Below are positions 55,186 to 62,257 of a DNA stretch of 64,000 nt, piece by piece (the stretch's first letter is position 1; every line of letters begins with the position of its first letter). The notes beneath the pieces are model-generated. The model saw only the letters and a list, made by a program, of their open reading frames with translations. It ran no database searches and was not told the DNA's origin. The DNA is from Paramagnetospirillum caucaseum (GTDB lineage Bacteria; Pseudomonadota; Alphaproteobacteria; Rhodospirillales; Magnetospirillaceae): the NCBI RefSeq assembly GCF_000342045.1, contig NZ_AONQ01000021.1:1-64000 (forward strand), given 5' to 3'. The position numbers and the translations under genes are program-made.

Positions 55186-55201
55186 GCTTGGCTGGGGCGC
55201 C
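55186..55201. repeat. Left attachment site (att direct repeat)
   Basis: GCTTGGCTGGGGCGCC, identical to 62180-62195. It corresponds to the last 13 bases of tRNA-Gln plus 3 flanking bases, but no tRNA body follows. GGCTGGGGC within it also pairs with GCCCCAGCC at 55206-55214 to form a 9-bp hairpin. Confidence 0.85.
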
Positions 55202-55267
55202 TGGAGCCCCAGCCGAAAGCGAAAAACAGCTATTATTTCAACTAGATAGCTGGCACCAAAAAGCGCA

Positions 55268-55285
55268 TGTGGACCGTCTTTGTGG
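55268..55285. repeat. Left copy of an 18-base end repeat
   Basis: TGTGGACCGTCTTTGTGG matches TGTGGACCGCCAATGTGG at 62099-62116 in 15 of 18 positions, in the same orientation. One copy lies inside each end of the element, as arm-type integrase or excisionase sites do. Confidence 0.5.
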
Positions 55286-55356
55286 ACTGCCCAAGGCCGG
55301 AATATGCCCTCTTGGAGCCCGGCTTGCAATCCCTCTCGTGCCAGGCTGGGGCCGAT

Positions 55357-55385
55357 TTGACGGCGACTCGACGACATGATACAAA
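55357..55385 (+). promoter_or_regulatory. Predicted promoter of the element's first operon
   Basis: TTGACG (55357-55362) and TACAAA (55380-55385) are 17 bases apart. A transcript from about 55392 would include the ATG at 55418 but not the one at 55376, which supports the shorter start for the first gene. Confidence 0.45.
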
Positions 55386-55417
55386 ATGTTAGGAACAACT
55401 ACATACGCAGGCTGCTA

Positions 55418-55816
55418 ATGCCCATCTTTGACCCTTCCAACCCTATCATTCGGTTGGCGCTTCGCATCACCTGGTCGGAGCAAGGCCGGCATTACACCGC
55501 CGCTACCGTTGCGGAGGCGTTCGGCCTCACCAGCCCAGTTGGCCTTTACAACACCCTGTGCAAGGGGTTCGAGCGCGGAGCCGGCCCTGTCGATGAAGGC
55601 CAGCTCCGCACCGCCTATGGCAAAGATGTTCGTCGCCATGTGAGCAACCAGGAATGGGAGCAGTCGATCTATGCGGGTCGAGAAGCTGCATATCACCTGG
55701 CCGCACACCTTGAAATCCTCGAAGCCCAACGTCGCGAACAGCGTCGCGCCCGTCTCTCCGCCGCCGGCAGTTGGTGCCGCCGGCCCCAGCCCCCGAAGGA
55801 GTCCCCCCATGTCTGA
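55418..55816 (+). CDS. Element protein of unknown function (132 residues)
   Basis: Unrecognised 132-residue protein. HYTAATVAEAFGLTSPVGLYNTL near residues 25-47 could form a helix-turn-helix; the C-terminus is basic and proline-rich. I start at MPIFDPSNP because the predicted promoter lies between this ATG and an earlier one at 55376. It overlaps the next gene by 8 bases, so the two are likely co-translated. Confidence 0.6.
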   Translation: MPIFDPSNPIIRLALRITWSEQGRHYTAATVAEAFGLTSPVGLYNTLCKGFERGAGPVDEGQLRTAYGKDVRRHVSNQEWEQSIYAGREAAYHLAAHLEILEAQRREQRRARLSAAGSWCRRPQPPKESPHV

Positions 55817-56231
55817 GTTCCAGTTCAGTTGGTCCCGCTTCAATGATCTACAGCGCCGGGCCGCCGCCGAAGACCTGACCGATCACGAAGCCGAAGAATA
55901 CGACACCCTGGCCCGTGTCTGGGAGGAGGCCAAGGCCGAGGGCCGCCGCAGGGAGGGGCGACAGGTCGAGGAACAGCGCCAGCGTCAGGCCGAAGAGAAC
56001 CCTTCCGACCCCGATGGTAGTGTCGGAGCCTGTCTGGCCGAATTCCAGCGGACCCGCGACCAGCAGCGCGGCGTCACATGGCATCGTGCCGAAATGGTCG
56101 AGGTCCGAAACCCGGACGGCAGGTCCACCAACCGCCAATGGGTCGGTCCTGGCCTTGCCGGCCAGACCTACCACCAGCCCAGCGCCTCCCGAGGCGGTCT
56201 GGACGCCATCAAACGCGGCCTGGCGGCCTGA
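55809..56231 (+). CDS. Element protein of unknown function (140 residues)
   Basis: A 140-residue protein starting MSEFQFSWSRFNDLQ. Residues 10-60 are strongly helical and charged (AAAEDLTDHEAEEYDTLARV, then REGRQVEEQRQRQAEE), a likely coiled coil. No family recognised. It lies in the middle of a three-gene run. Confidence 0.6.
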   Translation: MSEFQFSWSRFNDLQRRAAAEDLTDHEAEEYDTLARVWEEAKAEGRRREGRQVEEQRQRQAEENPSDPDGSVGACLAEFQRTRDQQRGVTWHRAEMVEVRNPDGRSTNRQWVGPGLAGQTYHQPSASRGGLDAIKRGLAA

Positions 56232-56235
56232 GGCG

Positions 56236-56736
56236 ATGGCTCGTCGCGATCCCGATAAGCCCGGCTTGGTCGCTCTCGATGCCCACAAAGAGGCTTTCGA
56301 GAGCGGCCACATGACGGCGACGGAAATCGCCGACACCCTCGGTGTATCGCGGCAAAAGACCAATGCCGCGATCAAGCGTGCGGGCTGGTGCCGACCGGCA
56401 GCACGGTCTGCACCTGGTGCTGCTGCTAAGGGTGGCACGACCAAGTTCACCACAGCCGAGGCCGGCGACCTGCTCGTCTCCTTCGGCGTCGCCACCCTCG
56501 CCCGCGCCCATTCCCTGGTGACGGGTGGTGACCTTGGGCCATCAGCGTTGAAGGCCGTCTCTGCTGCCGCCGCTGCTGCCGAAGGCATCCTTCAGCGTCG
56601 CGGCATCATTCTGCCGGTCTGGAATGAAGACCATCTCCAGAGATTGGAAATCGCGGTCCTGTCGGGGGATGAGGAGGCAGCAATCCGCACTGACGTCGAA
56701 GCTGCGATGATCGACGTCGAGAACGGGGGAGCCTGA
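56236..56736 (+). CDS. Helix-turn-helix element protein (166 residues)
   Basis: A 166-residue protein with a clear helix-turn-helix at about 28-50, MTATEIADTLGVSRQKTNAA, followed by an alanine-rich region and a helical C-terminus ending DVEAAMIDVENGGA. It may regulate the element or act as a terminase-small-subunit or replication accessory; the sequence does not decide. It starts 4 bases after the preceding stop. Confidence 0.6.
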   Translation: MARRDPDKPGLVALDAHKEAFESGHMTATEIADTLGVSRQKTNAAIKRAGWCRPAARSAPGAAAKGGTTKFTTAEAGDLLVSFGVATLARAHSLVTGGDLGPSALKAVSAAAAAAEGILQRRGIILPVWNEDHLQRLEIAVLSGDEEAAIRTDVEAAMIDVENGGA

Positions 56737-56783
56737 TAGCTCCCATCGTCAGCGTCCCTTGAAGTTTCACCACTCATGTGGCC

Positions 56784-56912
56784 GTCTCAATAGACCTTGC
56801 CCCCACGAGACACCGGCCGTCTCTAAAATTCGTGTCTCACAGAAATAGGGCGTTGATTTTTGAGACGCGTTTCGTGTAATGTCTTAAATGTTATTGAGAC
56901 ATATCGAGACGG
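56784..56912. repeat. GAGAC/GTCTC repeat array, candidate res site
   Basis: Eight GAGAC or GTCT(C) words in both orientations lie in about 130 bases just before the serine recombinase gene. The best pair is TTTGAGAC ... GTCTTAAA around 56859-56888. Serine resolvases usually bind three such imperfect dyads (subsites I-III) next to their own gene. Confidence 0.55.
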
Positions 56913-56921
56913 AGATACCCC

Positions 56922-57473
56922 ATGCTGATCGGTTACGCCCGCACCTCCACCCTGGACCAGCAAGCCGGCATTGAGGCACAGATGCGCGACCTGAAGGCGG
57001 CAGGATGTGAAAAGCTGTTCAGCGAACAGGTCTCCTCAGTGGATGTGACCAACCGGGAGCAACTTTCCCAGGCGCTCGATTTCATTCGCGAGGGGGACAC
57101 CCTGGTCGTTAGCAAGCTGGATCGCCTGGCCCGGTCAGTTGGGCATCTGCTGTCCATCATGGACGCCATCGAGTCCAAGGGTGCTGCTCTGCGCATTCTC
57201 AACATGGGGATCGACACCAGCACGCCGACCGGCAAGCTCATGTTGACGGTTCTAGGCGGTGTCGCTGAATTCGAACGTGAGATCATGTTGGAACGCCAAC
57301 GCGAAGGCATCGCCAAGGCCAAGGCTGAGGGCAAGTATAAGGGTCGGAAGCCCACAGCCATGGCAAAGGCCGACGAGGTGCTGGCGCTGCGTGCCGAGGG
57401 CTTGGGGGCTACTGAGATTGCCAAGCGGCTTGGAATTGGGCGGGCATCAGTGTACCGAGCCCTGGAGGCATAA
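56922..57473 (+). CDS. Serine recombinase (resolvase/invertase family)
   Basis: A 183-residue small serine recombinase. The catalytic serine is Ser9 in MLIGYARTSTLDQQ; VSKLDRLARS and EFEREIMLERQREGI are typical, and a C-terminal helix-turn-helix reads LGATEIAKRLGIGRASVYRA. Its length and array of upstream dyads fit a resolvase for multimer resolution, as on plasmids and Tn3-type elements, rather than the integration enzyme. Confidence 0.93.
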   Translation: MLIGYARTSTLDQQAGIEAQMRDLKAAGCEKLFSEQVSSVDVTNREQLSQALDFIREGDTLVVSKLDRLARSVGHLLSIMDAIESKGAALRILNMGIDTSTPTGKLMLTVLGGVAEFEREIMLERQREGIAKAKAEGKYKGRKPTAMAKADEVLALRAEGLGATEIAKRLGIGRASVYRALEA

Positions 57474-57912
57474 GCGACGCGAGAAGGCCGCCAGCATCGC
57501 AGGGAGCGATACCACGACATTTGCCTGGGGATGCCAGTAATCTCAAGCATGAGCGGCTCCCACTTTGCAGCACCAGGCCGCCTAACAAATTGTTTTCACG
57601 CCTTTCTTTCTTCGGCCCCGAGTTTTTGTCCTGCAAGGGCCTGCGTCTTCATCGTGGTATCACTCCCCACGATGTTGCTGCGGTTGAGAAGATCAAGGCC
57701 GGCGTCGAGGGAATTCGCCGAGGCGATAAAAAAACGGGGAGTAGGGCGGGCTTGAAGGGGAAGCGGATACTGAGCGGCCGGAATTTTTCGGAACCCGGAA
57801 CCTGGCCGCCCCAATCCAACCGAGCCGGGGCGATGGCTTCGTCCAACACAACTTTACGTCACCTCTCGCCTGGGCTATCAATCGAAGGAAAACTTCGATA
57901 GAGGGGGATGTT
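57474..57912. other. 439-base gap within the element
   Basis: No gene is supported. The open frames on both strands are short, in conflicting frames and without recognisable domains. The visible structure is a pair of inverted 17-base repeats at 57501-57517 and 57652-57668. Confidence 0.5.
57501..57668. repeat. 168-base segment with 17-bp imperfect terminal inverted repeats
   Basis: AGGGAGCGATACCACGA (57501-57517) matches the reverse complement of 57652-57668 in 15 of 17 positions, and weaker similarity continues outward. It may be a miniature inverted-repeat element or a relic of an insertion sequence. No clear target duplication is visible. Confidence 0.35.
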
Positions 57913-58554
57913 TTGCGTAAACTTGTTATTGCATCTCTGGCCATCCTGAGCGCCTGTGCGACTCCATCCACTTATGAGTTGAAGTGGAGGGCGGAACGGA
58001 ACTTCGACAAATTTGCCGATGGGCCGACATGCCGCGTGAGCATATGGGGGAACTGGTCGGGCTCCCTATTCCCCCACCAGTTCGCCGGCATGATCTATCC
58101 TGTTGTGGAAATGCGGGGTGACCTGGTGCTGGTGGGAGCCAAGAGCGTCCCCATGGGTAATGCCATGGCTCAATTCCAAATGCCGGTTGGCGACATTCAA
58201 CTGAGGATCGACGGCAACAAAGCTTGGACTGTTGCAGCAATCAACACCCCAAGCCTTGCTCCAGAGGGAAATTCCAAGGAGATCGGGGCGCAGAAGGTTG
58301 CGAATTCGGCGTCACCATCACCCTATATGGACCCGAAGGCTATGGCCGAGATGACCCAGAACATGATGAGCACCTACCGCAGCAGTATGTCGCCAATCAC
58401 CGCCACAAGCGGTGATGCCGCCAAGGACATCCTCAGGCAGATGGCTACCGGCAGGACGATCTTGTTCCGCCAGATTAACGGCAATGCCGCCGGGAAGACT
58501 TTCGAGTATTCCCTGGAAACCTTCAATTCTGCCATGGCGGCCTGCTCATCGTGA
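57913..58554 (+). CDS. Element-encoded lipoprotein (213 residues)
   Basis: A 213-residue protein with a lipoprotein signal, LVIASLAILSAC, where Cys15 would be lipidated. The rest is a soluble domain without a recognised family. The start is TTG with AGGGGG 8 bases upstream; no ATG gives the signal peptide. It lies between the resolvase and the Rep-like gene. Confidence 0.6.
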   Translation: MRKLVIASLAILSACATPSTYELKWRAERNFDKFADGPTCRVSIWGNWSGSLFPHQFAGMIYPVVEMRGDLVLVGAKSVPMGNAMAQFQMPVGDIQLRIDGNKAWTVAAINTPSLAPEGNSKEIGAQKVANSASPSPYMDPKAMAEMTQNMMSTYRSSMSPITATSGDAAKDILRQMATGRTILFRQINGNAAGKTFEYSLETFNSAMAACSS

Positions 58555-58606
58555 AAAGCCGGCCCCCGATTTGACACCGCGAACAGAATGTTAGAAAGTT
58601 AGCCCT

Positions 58607-58700
58607 GGTCCGCGCGGCTATCGCTCCGCGCACATATGTATATCTCGTCTCGACGCCTCCCGGAGGGGGGCTAGGGCGGCGTCGCATGTGTGCGCGGACC
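58607..58700. repeat. Inverted-repeat cluster upstream of the Rep-like gene (candidate origin)
   Basis: GGTCCGCGC (58607-58615) pairs with GCGCGGACC (58692-58700). Inside lie a GCGCGG/CCGCGC hairpin (58612-58631) and a CACATATG/CATGTGTG near-repeat. This dense dyad cluster sits immediately before the start of a possible HUH replication gene, where a double-strand origin would be expected. Confidence 0.4.
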
Positions 58701-58724
58701 TCGAACAACAGATCGAGGAAAGCC

Positions 58725-59666
58725 GTGCCCATGACCCTATCTCCCGAACTCTCTTTCGACGCCCACATCGCCCCCATTCTGGCCGGCCCCCATGCCCCAG
58801 GATTGCCCTCGTGCATCCTTGAAATTCAACGGCTTCTTGCCCGCCTCGACTTTCCGAGCAAAGCCACCAGGCGTGCGGCCTCCATAGTGGCATACATCCA
58901 ACACCGTCTCTCCTCTCGCCTGGCAGGTAATCTCCAGAGATGGAAAGACCTGGGGGAAGCCGAGAAGCTCCTCTACATCGTCATGGAATTGGAGCAGACG
59001 AACTTCCGGTTCAACGCCTTCGCCACCATCCACCTGAAGGGAACCGGCAACGAGATCGAGACAGCCGAACAACTGGTCGCCGATCTTCAAGAGGTGCTCC
59101 GGCATGTTGACCCCATGGCTGAGGTGCTGGCCGTCGAGGCTCTGGATCGAGGTATCCGCCATGTCCACTGCCTGGTCTCGCTGCCCAAGGCCCCGAGCAC
59201 CCGCGCCGGCCGTGTCCACCTTCGGGATATCGTCGGCTGGTTCGATGAGCGCAATGGCCGGCCTGGCATAGCCTGGAAGAACGGCAGCGGCGTTCCCGCC
59301 CATCTCGAATGGCTGGACGAGCAGAAGGTCTTCCAGCGCGTCGGCATTGGCGGCCTCCTGGGAGCAGCCTGCTACATGGCTGCCCAGCGTGAGATGCGCC
59401 TGGTCGCCGGTCGGAACCTACGCGCCATCGGCAAGCAGCTTCATGCGGAGGCTCGTGACGCCGTGCGCCTCGCCGGGGGAGGCTTCCCTATACCCCTCCC
59501 CGCTTCACCAGCCTGTGGGGCTCCAATCGACGATGGCGATGACGCCAAGGAGCGAACACTGCCGGCCTTCGACGCCATCAAGCTGGCACAGCAGGAACGG
59601 GAGCGGAGCTGGTGGCGGCTCCCGCCGCTCATAAGCACTCCACCATTGTATCAGGGAAGTGCCTGA
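58725..59666 (+). CDS. Possible HUH-type replication initiator
   Basis: A 313-residue protein. HVHCLV at 146-151 fits the metal-binding HUHUUU motif (U hydrophobic) of rolling-circle Rep proteins and relaxases. AFATIHLKG about 47 residues earlier could be motif 1 and GAACYMAAQREM near residue 229 could carry the catalytic tyrosine. I start at GTG with GAGGAAA 6 bases upstream; an ATG two codons later is also possible. The assignment rests on motifs alone and the family is not recognised with certainty. Confidence 0.5.
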   Translation: MPMTLSPELSFDAHIAPILAGPHAPGLPSCILEIQRLLARLDFPSKATRRAASIVAYIQHRLSSRLAGNLQRWKDLGEAEKLLYIVMELEQTNFRFNAFATIHLKGTGNEIETAEQLVADLQEVLRHVDPMAEVLAVEALDRGIRHVHCLVSLPKAPSTRAGRVHLRDIVGWFDERNGRPGIAWKNGSGVPAHLEWLDEQKVFQRVGIGGLLGAACYMAAQREMRLVAGRNLRAIGKQLHAEARDAVRLAGGGFPIPLPASPACGAPIDDGDDAKERTLPAFDAIKLAQQERERSWWRLPPLISTPPLYQGSA

Positions 59667-59774
59667 AGGTTGACTGGCCAAATATATCGAAAGATGATTT
59701 AGCCAATAAAGCCGAATTGACAGAGTTGTGTTAGCATTAATTAGAACGTAAAATCATCAAGTCAATGGTGTTAT

Positions 59775-60149
59775 CTAAATTAAAGTGCATCTGAATTTTA
59801 TCGCTTGCCTCATCACTTCAGCTAATTCTGGGCTCATATCATCTGCACCATCAACAATTAAGACATGCTTGTCTTCGTAGCTATAATGAAACATCGTTGC
59901 GCCAACATAACCGCCAAATCTATTCTTTGAATTAACCATTCCGCATACGTCATTTGCATCAAGCTTAATAGCTTTAGAGGGTTTTTTTGATGGATCCGGA
60001 TTAAATAATCCTTCAAATTGGGCGCTGCTCGGGTCTATAAGTATTTTCTTTACAGCTGAAATAGCTTCTTTCTCGTTTTTTACAGAAGGATCACACGCCA
60101 CCAACATTATTACAGCGGCAGAGAAAGACAATATTCGTAATGTCATCAT
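59775..60149 (-). CDS. AT-rich element lipoprotein (124 residues)
   Basis: A 124-residue protein with a lipoprotein signal, RILSFSAAVIMLVAC, and a small mature domain containing one further cysteine pair. GGAGGAAACT precedes the double ATG at 60149. The gene and its flanks (59670-60345) are clearly richer in A and T than everything around and use codons unlike the neighbours, which suggests a separate, recent origin. Function unknown; ILIDPSSAQFEGLF resembles small secreted proteins in which amino-acid-level similarity is low. Confidence 0.65.
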   Translation of the reverse strand: MMTLRILSFSAAVIMLVACDPSVKNEKEAISAVKKILIDPSSAQFEGLFNPDPSKKPSKAIKLDANDVCGMVNSKNRFGGYVGATMFHYSYEDKHVLIVDGADDMSPELAEVMRQAIKFRCTLI

Positions 60150-60340
60150 AGTTTCCTCCAATTATTTTTTGGCTAAATGAACTTCACACGGCACTTATCT
60201 GTCGTTGCGCGCCTTGCATCAGAACAACAACGTGAAAGTTGCTGTTATCAACATAAATAGCCTAGCTTCTATCCGCTGCATATGAGTGAGTACTCTGGCT
60301 TCGGCGTTTATGAGCAGCGGACAGATTGCGATACCACATA

Positions 60341-62053
60341 CTAATCATGAGGGCAATTGCTGACATACAATTGCTTTTTAGGGCTAATTAAGTTTGCATT
60401 AATCCCGTCATACGCAATCTCTGAGATGGCCTCGTACCAATCTTTGATGACGAACCCCTTGCCGTACCTCCCCCGCTCTTCCGGAGTGTCATGACCATCC
60501 AGTTGGTCCATCAGGTCGGGATGGACCCTCGCTCGCTGGAGCGCCGTAATGACGGAATGCCGGAGCGAGTGATAGGACACGCCGGTAATGCCCAGTGAGC
60601 GGATGTAATCAGGAAACCACTTACTGAACAGGTATCCGAGGCGCATTGCCGTACCGCCTGGCTTAAGGTCTGGAAATACCATCTTCTCGCCCTTGCTGCG
60701 CAGTTCGGCCACATAGTCGAGAAAGCCCAACTCGACCGGGATAGGGTGAAGCGGGATGCGCCGCCAACCGGCCGCCGTCTTTACCTTCCTCTTCGGTAGC
60801 GTGTCCTCATCCTCGTCCTCAGTGGCATGGACGTGCAGGAAGGAGATGCCCTCATCCTCCTGCACGTCTTCCAATCGCAATTGGGACGCCTCTTCCAGAC
60901 GGATGGGATGGAACGCCCCCAATAGAGGAAGCCAGTAGCGTGCGTTTCGGTAGATGTGGGGACCAGGTCGGGGCTTGGTGCGGAAACGTGGCGATGTGGC
61001 ACCGTGATAGAGGGGGCTTTGAAAGAGCACTCGAAGCTGCTCCGGCGTCCAGGCTGCGCGTTCCTCGCTGCGCCGGTGGGTTCGCTTCCACTTGAAGGCC
61101 CCCCTCGCGAAGTTGGCCTCCAACCCATACTCATCGACGCACCATCCGAAAAACGTACTGACAATGCCGGCATGGCGCTTGACGGTCGGCGGAGCCAGCG
61201 TCTTGATCTTCGGGTTCTTCTCGGCCATCGCGACCAACTCAGAGAGATTTCCCGACCATGCCTGCCCTTTGCCTCGTTTGCTGGGCAGCCCTTGCAGCAT
61301 GGTAACGAAATCGGTGAAGTCGGTTCGCTCGTAGCGATCAATTCGCCGGTCGCCGCACCATTCCTTGAACAGCTCGTGCGCATCCTCGTTGGCCTTCGCC
61401 TGATCCGGCCCCCAGGTCTTGGCCTTGGCCCGGCTGTAGCGGGCGTAGGCTTCGCTGAGCTTCGGCAGTGCCTTCTTTCGAGAACCCGCCTGAGAGGCCG
61501 GCTGCGCCGCGAATAGAGGGTCTTGTGGGGCGACGGCATAGTCCCCTTCCAGGCGGGCGGCCTGGACCCGGTTGAGGTCGGCCACCGCCCGCAACAGCCC
61601 CCGGCAGACCCGCATGTAGGTGTCGCTGCCTGGCGCTGCCTGAATGCCGGCTTGGGTCAGTAACTCGTCGGCCAACTCCTCGACCAGAAAGGTACGGTCG
61701 TGCTTCACCCCGTCCACATAGTCGGCGGCCATCTGCTTTGCGGCCTCGACGTTGAACGGGACGCTGCCGAACCCGCGCATCTCCTCCCAGTGCTCCAAGG
61801 CACTGACATACCATTCGCGCAGCAGATCATTGATTTGCGTCGTGGTCAGGTCGGGGCGTCGCTTCACCATCAGAAATAGCTCATCCGTCAACGTCGTTAG
61901 CCGCCGGGCCTTCTCTCGTGCTTCGGCATAGGGGACCACACCGAGACTTTTAATCAGCTCGACGCGCCCGAACCTGCCGATGAGAGAGGGAGGAATGCGG
62001 CGACGCCAATCATATCGGCCACCACGGGGACGCAAATAAAAATTTCTCGCCAT
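60341..62053 (-). CDS. Site-specific tyrosine integrase
   Basis: A 570-residue phage-type integrase. Catalytic residues are visible in the C-terminal third: Arg385 (FHPIRLEEASQL), His495 and Arg498 (YHSLRHS), His521 (DGHDTPEERG) and Tyr530 (RYG). The N-terminal 200 residues are longer than in lambda-type enzymes and begin MARNFYLRPRGGRYDWRRRI. It ends the element beside its tRNA-Gln target, transcribed away from the tRNA. A 9-bp inverted repeat GCGCCTCGT/ACGAGGCGC (62057-62082) directly before the start may be an operator. Confidence 0.94.
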   Translation of the reverse strand: MARNFYLRPRGGRYDWRRRIPPSLIGRFGRVELIKSLGVVPYAEAREKARRLTTLTDELFLMVKRRPDLTTTQINDLLREWYVSALEHWEEMRGFGSVPFNVEAAKQMAADYVDGVKHDRTFLVEELADELLTQAGIQAAPGSDTYMRVCRGLLRAVADLNRVQAARLEGDYAVAPQDPLFAAQPASQAGSRKKALPKLSEAYARYSRAKAKTWGPDQAKANEDAHELFKEWCGDRRIDRYERTDFTDFVTMLQGLPSKRGKGQAWSGNLSELVAMAEKNPKIKTLAPPTVKRHAGIVSTFFGWCVDEYGLEANFARGAFKWKRTHRRSEERAAWTPEQLRVLFQSPLYHGATSPRFRTKPRPGPHIYRNARYWLPLLGAFHPIRLEEASQLRLEDVQEDEGISFLHVHATEDEDEDTLPKRKVKTAAGWRRIPLHPIPVELGFLDYVAELRSKGEKMVFPDLKPGGTAMRLGYLFSKWFPDYIRSLGITGVSYHSLRHSVITALQRARVHPDLMDQLDGHDTPEERGRYGKGFVIKDWYEAISEIAYDGINANLISPKKQLYVSNCPHD

Positions 62054-62056
62054 GCC

Positions 62057-62082
62057 GCGCCTCGTTGAGGCCCACGAGGCGC
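62057..62082. repeat. 9-bp inverted repeat before the integrase start
   Basis: GCGCCTCGT (62057-62065) and ACGAGGCGC (62074-62082) are perfect arms with an 8-base spacer, starting 4 bases upstream of the integrase ATG. Likely an operator or a hairpin in the leader. Confidence 0.4.
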
Positions 62083-62098
62083 GGGGCAGAATGCGCCT

Positions 62099-62116
62099 TG
62101 TGGACCGCCAATGTGG
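62099..62116. repeat. Right copy of the 18-base end repeat
   Basis: TGTGGACCGCCAATGTGG, the counterpart of 55268-55285, 64 bases inside the right attachment site. Confidence 0.5.
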
Positions 62117-62179
62117 TAGCGGGCCACGAACGCGGTTCGATGCCTGAAAAAAGCTAACAGTATGAAATAGTTGATAAAC

Positions 62180-62195
62180 GCTTGGCTGGGGCGCC
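62180..62195. repeat. Right attachment site, within tRNA-Gln
   Basis: GCTTGGCTGGGGCGCC, identical to 55186-55201. It overlaps the 3' end of the tRNA-Gln gene, which stays intact. Confidence 0.85.
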
Positions 62196-62257
62196 AGGAT
62201 TCGAACCTGGGAATGCCGGTACCAAAAACCGGTGCCTTACCGCTTGGCGACGCCCCA
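62183..62257 (-). tRNA. tRNA-Gln (anticodon UUG)
   Basis: 75 bases including an encoded CCA. The acceptor stem TGGGGCG pairs with CGCCCCA, followed by discriminator G and CCA. The anticodon stem CCGGT/ACCGG encloses loop TTTTGGT with TTG at positions 34-36. The T-arm contains GGTTCGAATCC. It is the integration target of the element on its 3' side and lies 49 bases from the ispE stop. Confidence 0.97.

Follow-up and report, generated by a model that had tools for sequence, protein, structure and literature searches.

A compact integrative element with a tyrosine integrase, a resolvase and a probable HUH protein at a tRNA-Gln gene of Paramagnetospirillum caucaseum

The subject of this study is a 7.0-kb element inserted at the 3' end of a tRNA-Gln gene of Paramagnetospirillum caucaseum, within the first 64,000 nucleotides of contig NZ_AONQ01000021.1 (the whole stretch analysed, called the window below). 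Its integration at the tRNA-Gln is strongly supported by comparison with other genomes of the genus. The account favoured here, with moderate confidence and from sequence comparison, is that it is a compact, non-self-transmissible and helper-dependent integrative element, a small and poorly described form of a known type of hitch-hiking element. It encodes a tyrosine integrase, a serine resolvase, two lipoprotein-like proteins (Lp1 and Lp2), three proteins of unassigned family (genes A, B and C) and a candidate HUH protein, which is probably a strongly diverged relative of the initiator enzymes of rolling-circle replication. The chief interest lies in this HUH protein and in the genomic company that its relatives keep.

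Integration at the tRNA-Gln gene

The element is enclosed by a perfect 16-bp direct repeat, GCTTGGCTGGGGCGCC, with copies at 55186-55201 and 62180-62195, the second being the 3' end of the tRNA. The sequence occurs twice on the forward strand of the window and not at all on the reverse strand, and when the copies are extended to 20 nt they are 95% identical. An unoccupied site was found in a genome of the same genus (G010), where the matches to the two flanks of the element lie 26 bp apart: that to the left flank ends at contig position 2581149, while that to the right flank begins at 2581176, which corresponds to window position 62180, where the repeat begins. When the window flanks were joined, they aligned to G010 as a single block of 786 columns with 88.6% identity and 22 gap positions. 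The exact edges against this empty site imply that the 16 bp delimit a real insertion, as the original prediction had proposed from the repeat, and G010 supplies the strain lacking the 7.0 kb that it had asked for; nor were the same genes seen elsewhere without the repeat in the loci examined. Three marks of a tRNA island are present: the 3' end of the tRNA is repeated at the two edges, a tyrosine integrase lies inside next to the tRNA (about 130 bp away), and a relative has an empty site.

Both flanks were matched in all 17 genomes of the genus, and the tRNA-Gln site was inspected in six of them besides the host's own (G009, G010, G013, G016, G003 and G008). A related element occupies the same tRNA-Gln in G009. 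The other occupants are an integrase together with a MobA/VirD2-type relaxase (PF03432) within 14.5 kb bounded by a 53-bp repeat (G013), an integrase within 11.4 kb bounded by a 47-bp repeat (G016), and a DUF6538 integrase within 9.4 kb bounded by a 24-bp repeat (G003), where the tRNA lies away from cobN. In G008 an integrase adjoins the tRNA, and a repeat was not found within the 6.5 kb inspected.

On the element side, the left copy of the repeat runs into a longer arrangement, GGCTGGGGC-GCCTGGA-GCCCCAGCC, of two 9-bp arms with a 7-nt gap (arms read by eye). The second arm, GCCCCAGCC, is present at attL and missing from both attB and attR. Two short arms around a spacer are the layout of the core-type sites of tyrosine recombinases, so that this arm pair is predicted to match core-type integrase binding sites. 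An Rfam scan of the two source stretches submitted returned nothing besides the tRNA.

The candidate HUH protein and its genomic company

The HUH motif, EALDRGIRHVHCLV, occupies residues 151-164 of the longer frame of the candidate, with an HxH that follows E..(x)RG, and the candidate catalytic tyrosine is Y230. When the protein was shuffled, a pattern of E-x3-5-G-x1-3-HxH plus two hydrophobic residues arose in 0.19% of cases (5.4% for the bare HxH-hydrophobic pattern), and among 124 frames of ten stretches the strict form of the motif was restricted to the window protein and to its copy in G009. In single hhalign comparisons with seven PF23343-type proteins, one (L118, from G091) matched the candidate with a probability of 59% (P 9e-5); none of the other six reached 3%, and none of seven reversed controls 0.5%. 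Relatives were added to L118 to give an eight-member profile of HUH proteins from Alphaproteobacteria, with the candidate left out, and this profile matched the candidate with a probability of 84% (P 7e-6; 55% and P 1.2e-4 without context), over residues 84-168, from motif I through the HxH. In an hmmsearch with the same profile and filters off, the two candidate sequences ranked second and third of 910 (E 0.0011), after an HUH-type frame on contig C91 of the host's own genome that carries the invariant residues of the family. Those residues are E, H, H, Y and K in all eight relatives; the candidate retains E, H and H, together with a tyrosine near the expected place.

Several results weigh against this identification. 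The protein had no significant match in Pfam, PHROGs, NCBIfam, PADLOC or PDB; a joint profile of the seven PF23343-type matches reached a probability of only 6%; and the alignment to the eight-member profile ends at residue 168, which leaves the catalytic tyrosine unaligned. The candidate also lacks the lysine that its relatives have in motif III. In the reverse search, with a candidate profile against the family and background, G091 came first after the candidates at E 0.1, and the candidate did not appear at E 0.01 when the host's own genome was searched with the profile of the eight relatives. AlphaFold models were too poor for use (mean predicted local distance difference test score 35 for the whole protein and 44 for the core). 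Because the library matches are non-significant, the eight-member profile stands at 84%, and the reverse and own-genome searches are weak, the HUH call is one of remote homology only: the candidate is a probable, but not proven, divergent member of the superfamily. The original prediction, which had called it on motifs alone, is thereby raised to remote homology, still with no significant family match.

The distribution of the protein itself is narrow, as it was found in two of 40 relatives (the host's own genome and G009), and no significant match was seen among plasmid and phage records. Matches at E 0.001-0.01 in two other genomes among 385 of the class, and in five among 398 of the phylum, were dropped as chance; the frames named among them were DnaK-like, short-chain-dehydrogenase-like and acetyltransferase-like. 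A search for PF23343 in 190 genomes of the class gave nine places in eight genomes, two of them above the cut-off, and the candidate was not among them; seven of the nine are the proteins compared singly above. No relative was confirmed among viral contigs, which were scanned with the HUH protein and its alignment as well as with Lp1, the integrase and L118. Scans of phage records with the HUH protein, Lp1 and L118, and two scans of genome contigs, likewise gave none.

Eight chromosomal loci of relatives of the HUH protein were examined first, followed by three more. A tyrosine integrase was present at seven of the eight, six being recognized by Pfam and the one on contig C91 by similarity to the window integrase. 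Five of the eight have a tRNA-Ser whose last 14-15 nt recur at a distance of 4.8-10.9 kb (contig C54 of the host's own genome, G091, G206 twice, and G236), each such copy having an E of 0.002-0.01 within its stretch. Of the remainder, the C91 locus has no tRNA on its contig, that in G381 has an integrase and no tRNA in 19 kb, and that in G153 has neither. An integrase-like frame was seen at two of the three loci added later (L155, which lies at a contig end, and the weak members L156 and L157). A genome search with the eight relatives also gave two weaker matches, in G152 and G392, outside this set. Three family members (G091, G206 and contig C54) matched PF23343 weakly. Among four plasmid stretches with an HUH relative, three carried a serine recombinase and two an annotated replication protein. 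The family therefore tends to accompany integrases in chromosomes and resolvases in plasmids, and the window element has both. Because two of the four plasmids carry another replication protein, the HUH protein may be accessory rather than the main initiator.

The host genome has two other loci with HUH-type genes. One (L131, contig C91, 4281-14299) is another set of integrase, serine recombinase and HUH protein, with DarG-like macro-domain, DarT-like and large methylase-type genes (names given by eye), and the other (L132, contig C54, 1034-12067) is an element of about 11 kb that lies at tRNA-Ser(cga); its integrase is of P4 type, and it encodes a 612-aa protein containing an HUH-type domain. 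In G236, the HUH-family gene lies in two frames (L138, 9624-10480) inside a 5.9-kb tRNA-Ser element. A similar-looking companion gene, with MGGWNSGR or MGGLLSGR near its start (by eye), was noticed in three of the HUH-bearing tRNA-Ser elements (Table 1).

Gene content and mosaic history of the element

The features of the element are collected in Table 1.

Table 1. Features of the element in window coordinates, with copies of the companion gene in their own loci.
Feature	Position	Strand	Remarks
attL, 16-bp repeat copy	55186..55201	.	arms read by eye
Gene A, 146 aa, overlaps gene B	55376..55816	+	no significant family match
Gene B, 140 aa	55809..56231	+	no significant family match
Gene C, 166 aa, weak helix-turn-helix, possible regulator	56236..56736	+	best PF07037 E 0.001, under cut-off
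GTCTC/GAGAC dyad array, res-like	56784..56912	.	upstream of resolvase
Serine recombinase, resolvase/invertase type, 183 aa	56922..57473	+	PF00239 E 3.1e-43; HTH_7 E 8.9e-10
Lp1, lipoprotein-like, 213 aa, LSAC lipobox (by eye), probable mobile cargo	57913..58554	+	PHROG 20142 E 2.8e-28
Possible HUH promoter, TTGACA then TTAGAA or TAGAAA after 14-15 nt (short spacing)	58571..58597	+	by eye
Long imperfect hairpin, putative sense-strand RNA leader element	58625..58698	+	origin-like repeat of the original prediction
Second hairpin, 3' arm over GAGG of probable ribosome site for 58731 start	58699..58718	+	
Candidate HUH-motif protein	58731..59666	+	longer open frame from 58686, 326 aa
Lp2, small lipoprotein-like, LVAC lipobox (by eye)	59775..60161	-	PHROG 2320 E 2.8e-17
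Tyrosine integrase, 570 aa, DUF6538 N-terminus	60341..62053	-	DUF6538 E 2.8e-10; PHROG 1 integrase E 1.2e-20
attR, 16-bp repeat copy = tRNA-Gln 3' end	62180..62195	.	
tRNA-Gln(TTG), integration target, left intact	62183..62257	-	
Companion gene copies	L136 7144-7797; L137 6104-6763; L138 10524-11153		

Most of the gene content read from the sequence in the original prediction agreed with the profile searches. The tyrosine integrase beside the tRNA was recognized by DUF6538 and PHROG 1 (its Pfam Phage_integrase match, E 4.7e-4, was under the cut-off), the serine recombinase by PF00239, with the dyad array before it, and the two lipoprotein-like genes by PHROG matches and lipoboxes. Genes A, B and C gave no significant family match. 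When the eight element proteins were compared with Pfam, PHROGs, NCBIfam and PADLOC, no capsid, conjugation or relaxase gene was recognized, in line with the prediction, and no AlpA-type regulator; the PHROGs scan likewise gave no significant packaging, capsid-remodelling or helper-linked gene.

The sole match to gene A was partial, at the end of contig C86 of the host's own genome. Gene C was matched in two of the 17 genomes of the genus including the host's own, the other at E 9.5e-4, and in no plasmid record; its matches to PHROGs terminase small subunits were weak (E 0.08-0.3). The recombinase has both the resolvase and the helix-turn-helix domain and repeated sites upstream, as expected of a resolvase with a res site, and resolution of multimers through it and the array is plausible. 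Two further copies of the resolvase are found on contig C1 of the same genome (83% and 77% identity; L010, 6546-7100, and L011, 1611-2168), likewise with GTCTC repeats upstream of both. Relatives of Lp1 were found in six plasmid records of three genera. One of these is a 2.46-kb Escherichia coli ColRNAI plasmid (L107), for which the incomplete gene table of PLSDB has an Lp1-like gene (386-1012) and rop only; the Lp1-like gene was present in four of 5426 complete E. coli genomes, and plasmid-borne in all four. A role of Lp1 at the cell surface or in exclusion is a guess.

Comparison with the G009 element points to parts with different histories. Amino acid identity to the window proteins is 85% for the integrase, 97% for Lp1, and 77-79% for the HUH protein. 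Synonymous divergence (dS) is 0.18 for Lp1, 0.18 for the first 100 alignment columns of the HUH gene and 0.23 for the next 150 (its C-terminus is saturated), compared with 0.34 and 0.40 for the host flanking genes ispE and cobN, and 0.97 for the integrase. Since dS differs in this way between the block (0.18-0.23), the host (0.34-0.40) and the integrase, the lipoprotein-HUH block has a history separate from that of the integrase; the element is read as a mosaic, in which the Lp1-HUH block would have been exchanged after the two lineages split while the integrases would predate the split. The ratio of nonsynonymous to synonymous divergence is 0.07 for Lp1, 0.09 for the integrase, and 0.36 overall for the HUH gene (0.49 in columns 1-100, and 0.13 in columns 101-250), and Lp1, the integrase and the HUH core evolve under purifying selection. 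In the place of Lp2, G009 has two other genes (L008, 10053-11698), one with an HExxH peptidase-like motif (by eye), which are possibly a toxin-antitoxin or regulator pair.

Explanations and comparison with known systems

For replication, excision and spread of the element, the sequence suggests the following course. The integrase recombines attP with the 3' end of tRNA-Gln and restores the tRNA, as seen in the anatomy of the site and in the empty site of G010, and excision as a 7.0-kb circle is probable. On the circle, the HUH protein may nick one strand, either for rolling-circle amplification or in preparation for helper-borne spread, and multimers would be resolved by the serine recombinase, acting at the GTCTC array. 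A structured mRNA leader, suggested by RNA pairs kept in two sequences, may mask the ribosome site and so restrain the HUH gene, and the lipoproteins would be cargo.

The leader stands where the original prediction had placed an origin-like inverted repeat, and it is now improbable that 58625-58698 is a double-strand origin at which the HUH protein nicks. Such an origin would suit the position of the repeat directly before the HUH gene and its DNA fold in the window (-27.7 kcal/mol, z -2.8), but in G009 the DNA fold drops to -17.3 kcal/mol (z -1.1) and the antisense RNA fold from -46.9 to -35.4 kcal/mol (z -3.2 and -2.2), whereas the sense RNA stays at -53.1 and -53.0 kcal/mol (z -2.9 and -4.8). 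Nor was a nick-site consensus recognized by eye, no dedicated search having been made. All 36 named RNA pairs form in both the window and G009, with four one-sided changes that keep G-U pairs and one two-sided change, and shifting the partner by 1-3 columns lowers the paired cells to 31-58%; in the second hairpin, all six pairs are identical in the two. Against this stands a shuffle control that was not beaten (231 of 500 as high), as expected because there are two sequences only. A search with the RNA model in 16 sources found both source places, plus the antisense of one at E 0.17. Because the sense RNA pairs persist in G009 while the DNA and antisense folds weaken, the repeat fits better as a sense-strand RNA leader limiting HUH translation than as a DNA origin. 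The HUH gene then probably starts at 58731, preceded by GAGGAAA (by eye), rather than at 58686; the candidate promoter upstream is conserved in G009 (L008), and was not called by a promoter scan. With an RNA-like hairpin, no motif-III lysine, and other replication proteins on half of the plasmids with HUH relatives, the rolling-circle replication originally proposed remains uncertain.

Those plasmids also suit a rather unlikely account of the whole, in which the HUH gene would be cargo, a module of its own such as a REP-associated tyrosine transposase (RAYT)- or defence-type single-strand nuclease, that travels with Lp1 and has no role in replication of the element. The far lower divergence of the Lp1-HUH block than of the integrase between the two genomes is consistent with this, as is the weak match of one of the eight relatives to an IS200-type transposase model (E 0.004), while the integrases near seven of the eight first-examined chromosomal relatives, and the constraint on the HUH core, speak against it. 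It is unlikely that the element is an inactive remnant of an old integration, decaying and with its mobility lost. Two observations lean that way and count against a functional element: no excisionase was recognized in the library scans of its eight proteins, and in G009 the left part of the related element is replaced by a pair of insertion sequence IS3-like frames (by eye), with no left att copy found. The element in the window, however, has identical repeats at its two ends and open main frames, and purifying selection acts on its integrase. A compact, helper-dependent integrative element remains the favoured account.

A broader proposal is tentative. The window element may be one of an alphaproteobacterial class, so far undescribed, of minimal tRNA-integrating elements (about 5-11 kb) in which a G2P-like HUH protein is the most regular gene besides the integrase, and serves to amplify the excised circle or to process it on behalf of a helper; it would be a fast-evolving member, with an added resolvase and an HUH gene whose translation is governed by an RNA switch. 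How small integrase islands without transfer genes multiply and move is mostly unexplained, and this element offers a minimal combination (integrase, HUH protein, resolvase, and two lipoproteins), so that what the HUH protein does could be studied gene by gene.

No published account of this particular element was found in the literature searched, which included a paper on the topic of helper-dependent elements (PMC11389934). PMC12595487 describes islands at the transfer-messenger RNA (tmRNA) gene with a 14-bp repeat, a tyrosine integrase (IntY), AlpA, an inovirus Gp2-like protein, and no genes for autonomous transfer; AlpA and a stretch of about 18 kb are common to the three islands described, the Gp2-like protein is among the likely class-defining genes, and one such island is transduced by a jumbo phage. 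The window element resembles these islands in its short repeats at a small RNA gene, its tyrosine integrase, its cargo, and the lack of recognized self-transfer genes, and differs in its length of 7.0 kb, in having no recognized AlpA, in another kind of HUH protein, and in the extra resolvase. The candidate HUH protein shares with REP_ORF2-G2P (PF23343) and YagK/YfjJ-type proteins the order of motifs (F-x-T-I, E...G..HxH, and a later tyrosine, for which the candidate has a putative counterpart), but differs from PF23343 in having no match to the family, no motif-III lysine, and a diverged C-terminus in its 326-aa frame. Integrative mobilizable elements, such as the 14.5-kb element of G013, share the integrase and att repeats at tRNA-Gln, but the PF03432 relaxase of that element has no recognized counterpart here. 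Finally, the 4.3-kb Sphingopyxis plasmid NZ_CP013343 differs in having an annotated RepA and no annotated integrase, but it carries, like the window element, a serine recombinase and a relative of the same HUH kind, and in this way the element ties such islands to small plasmids.

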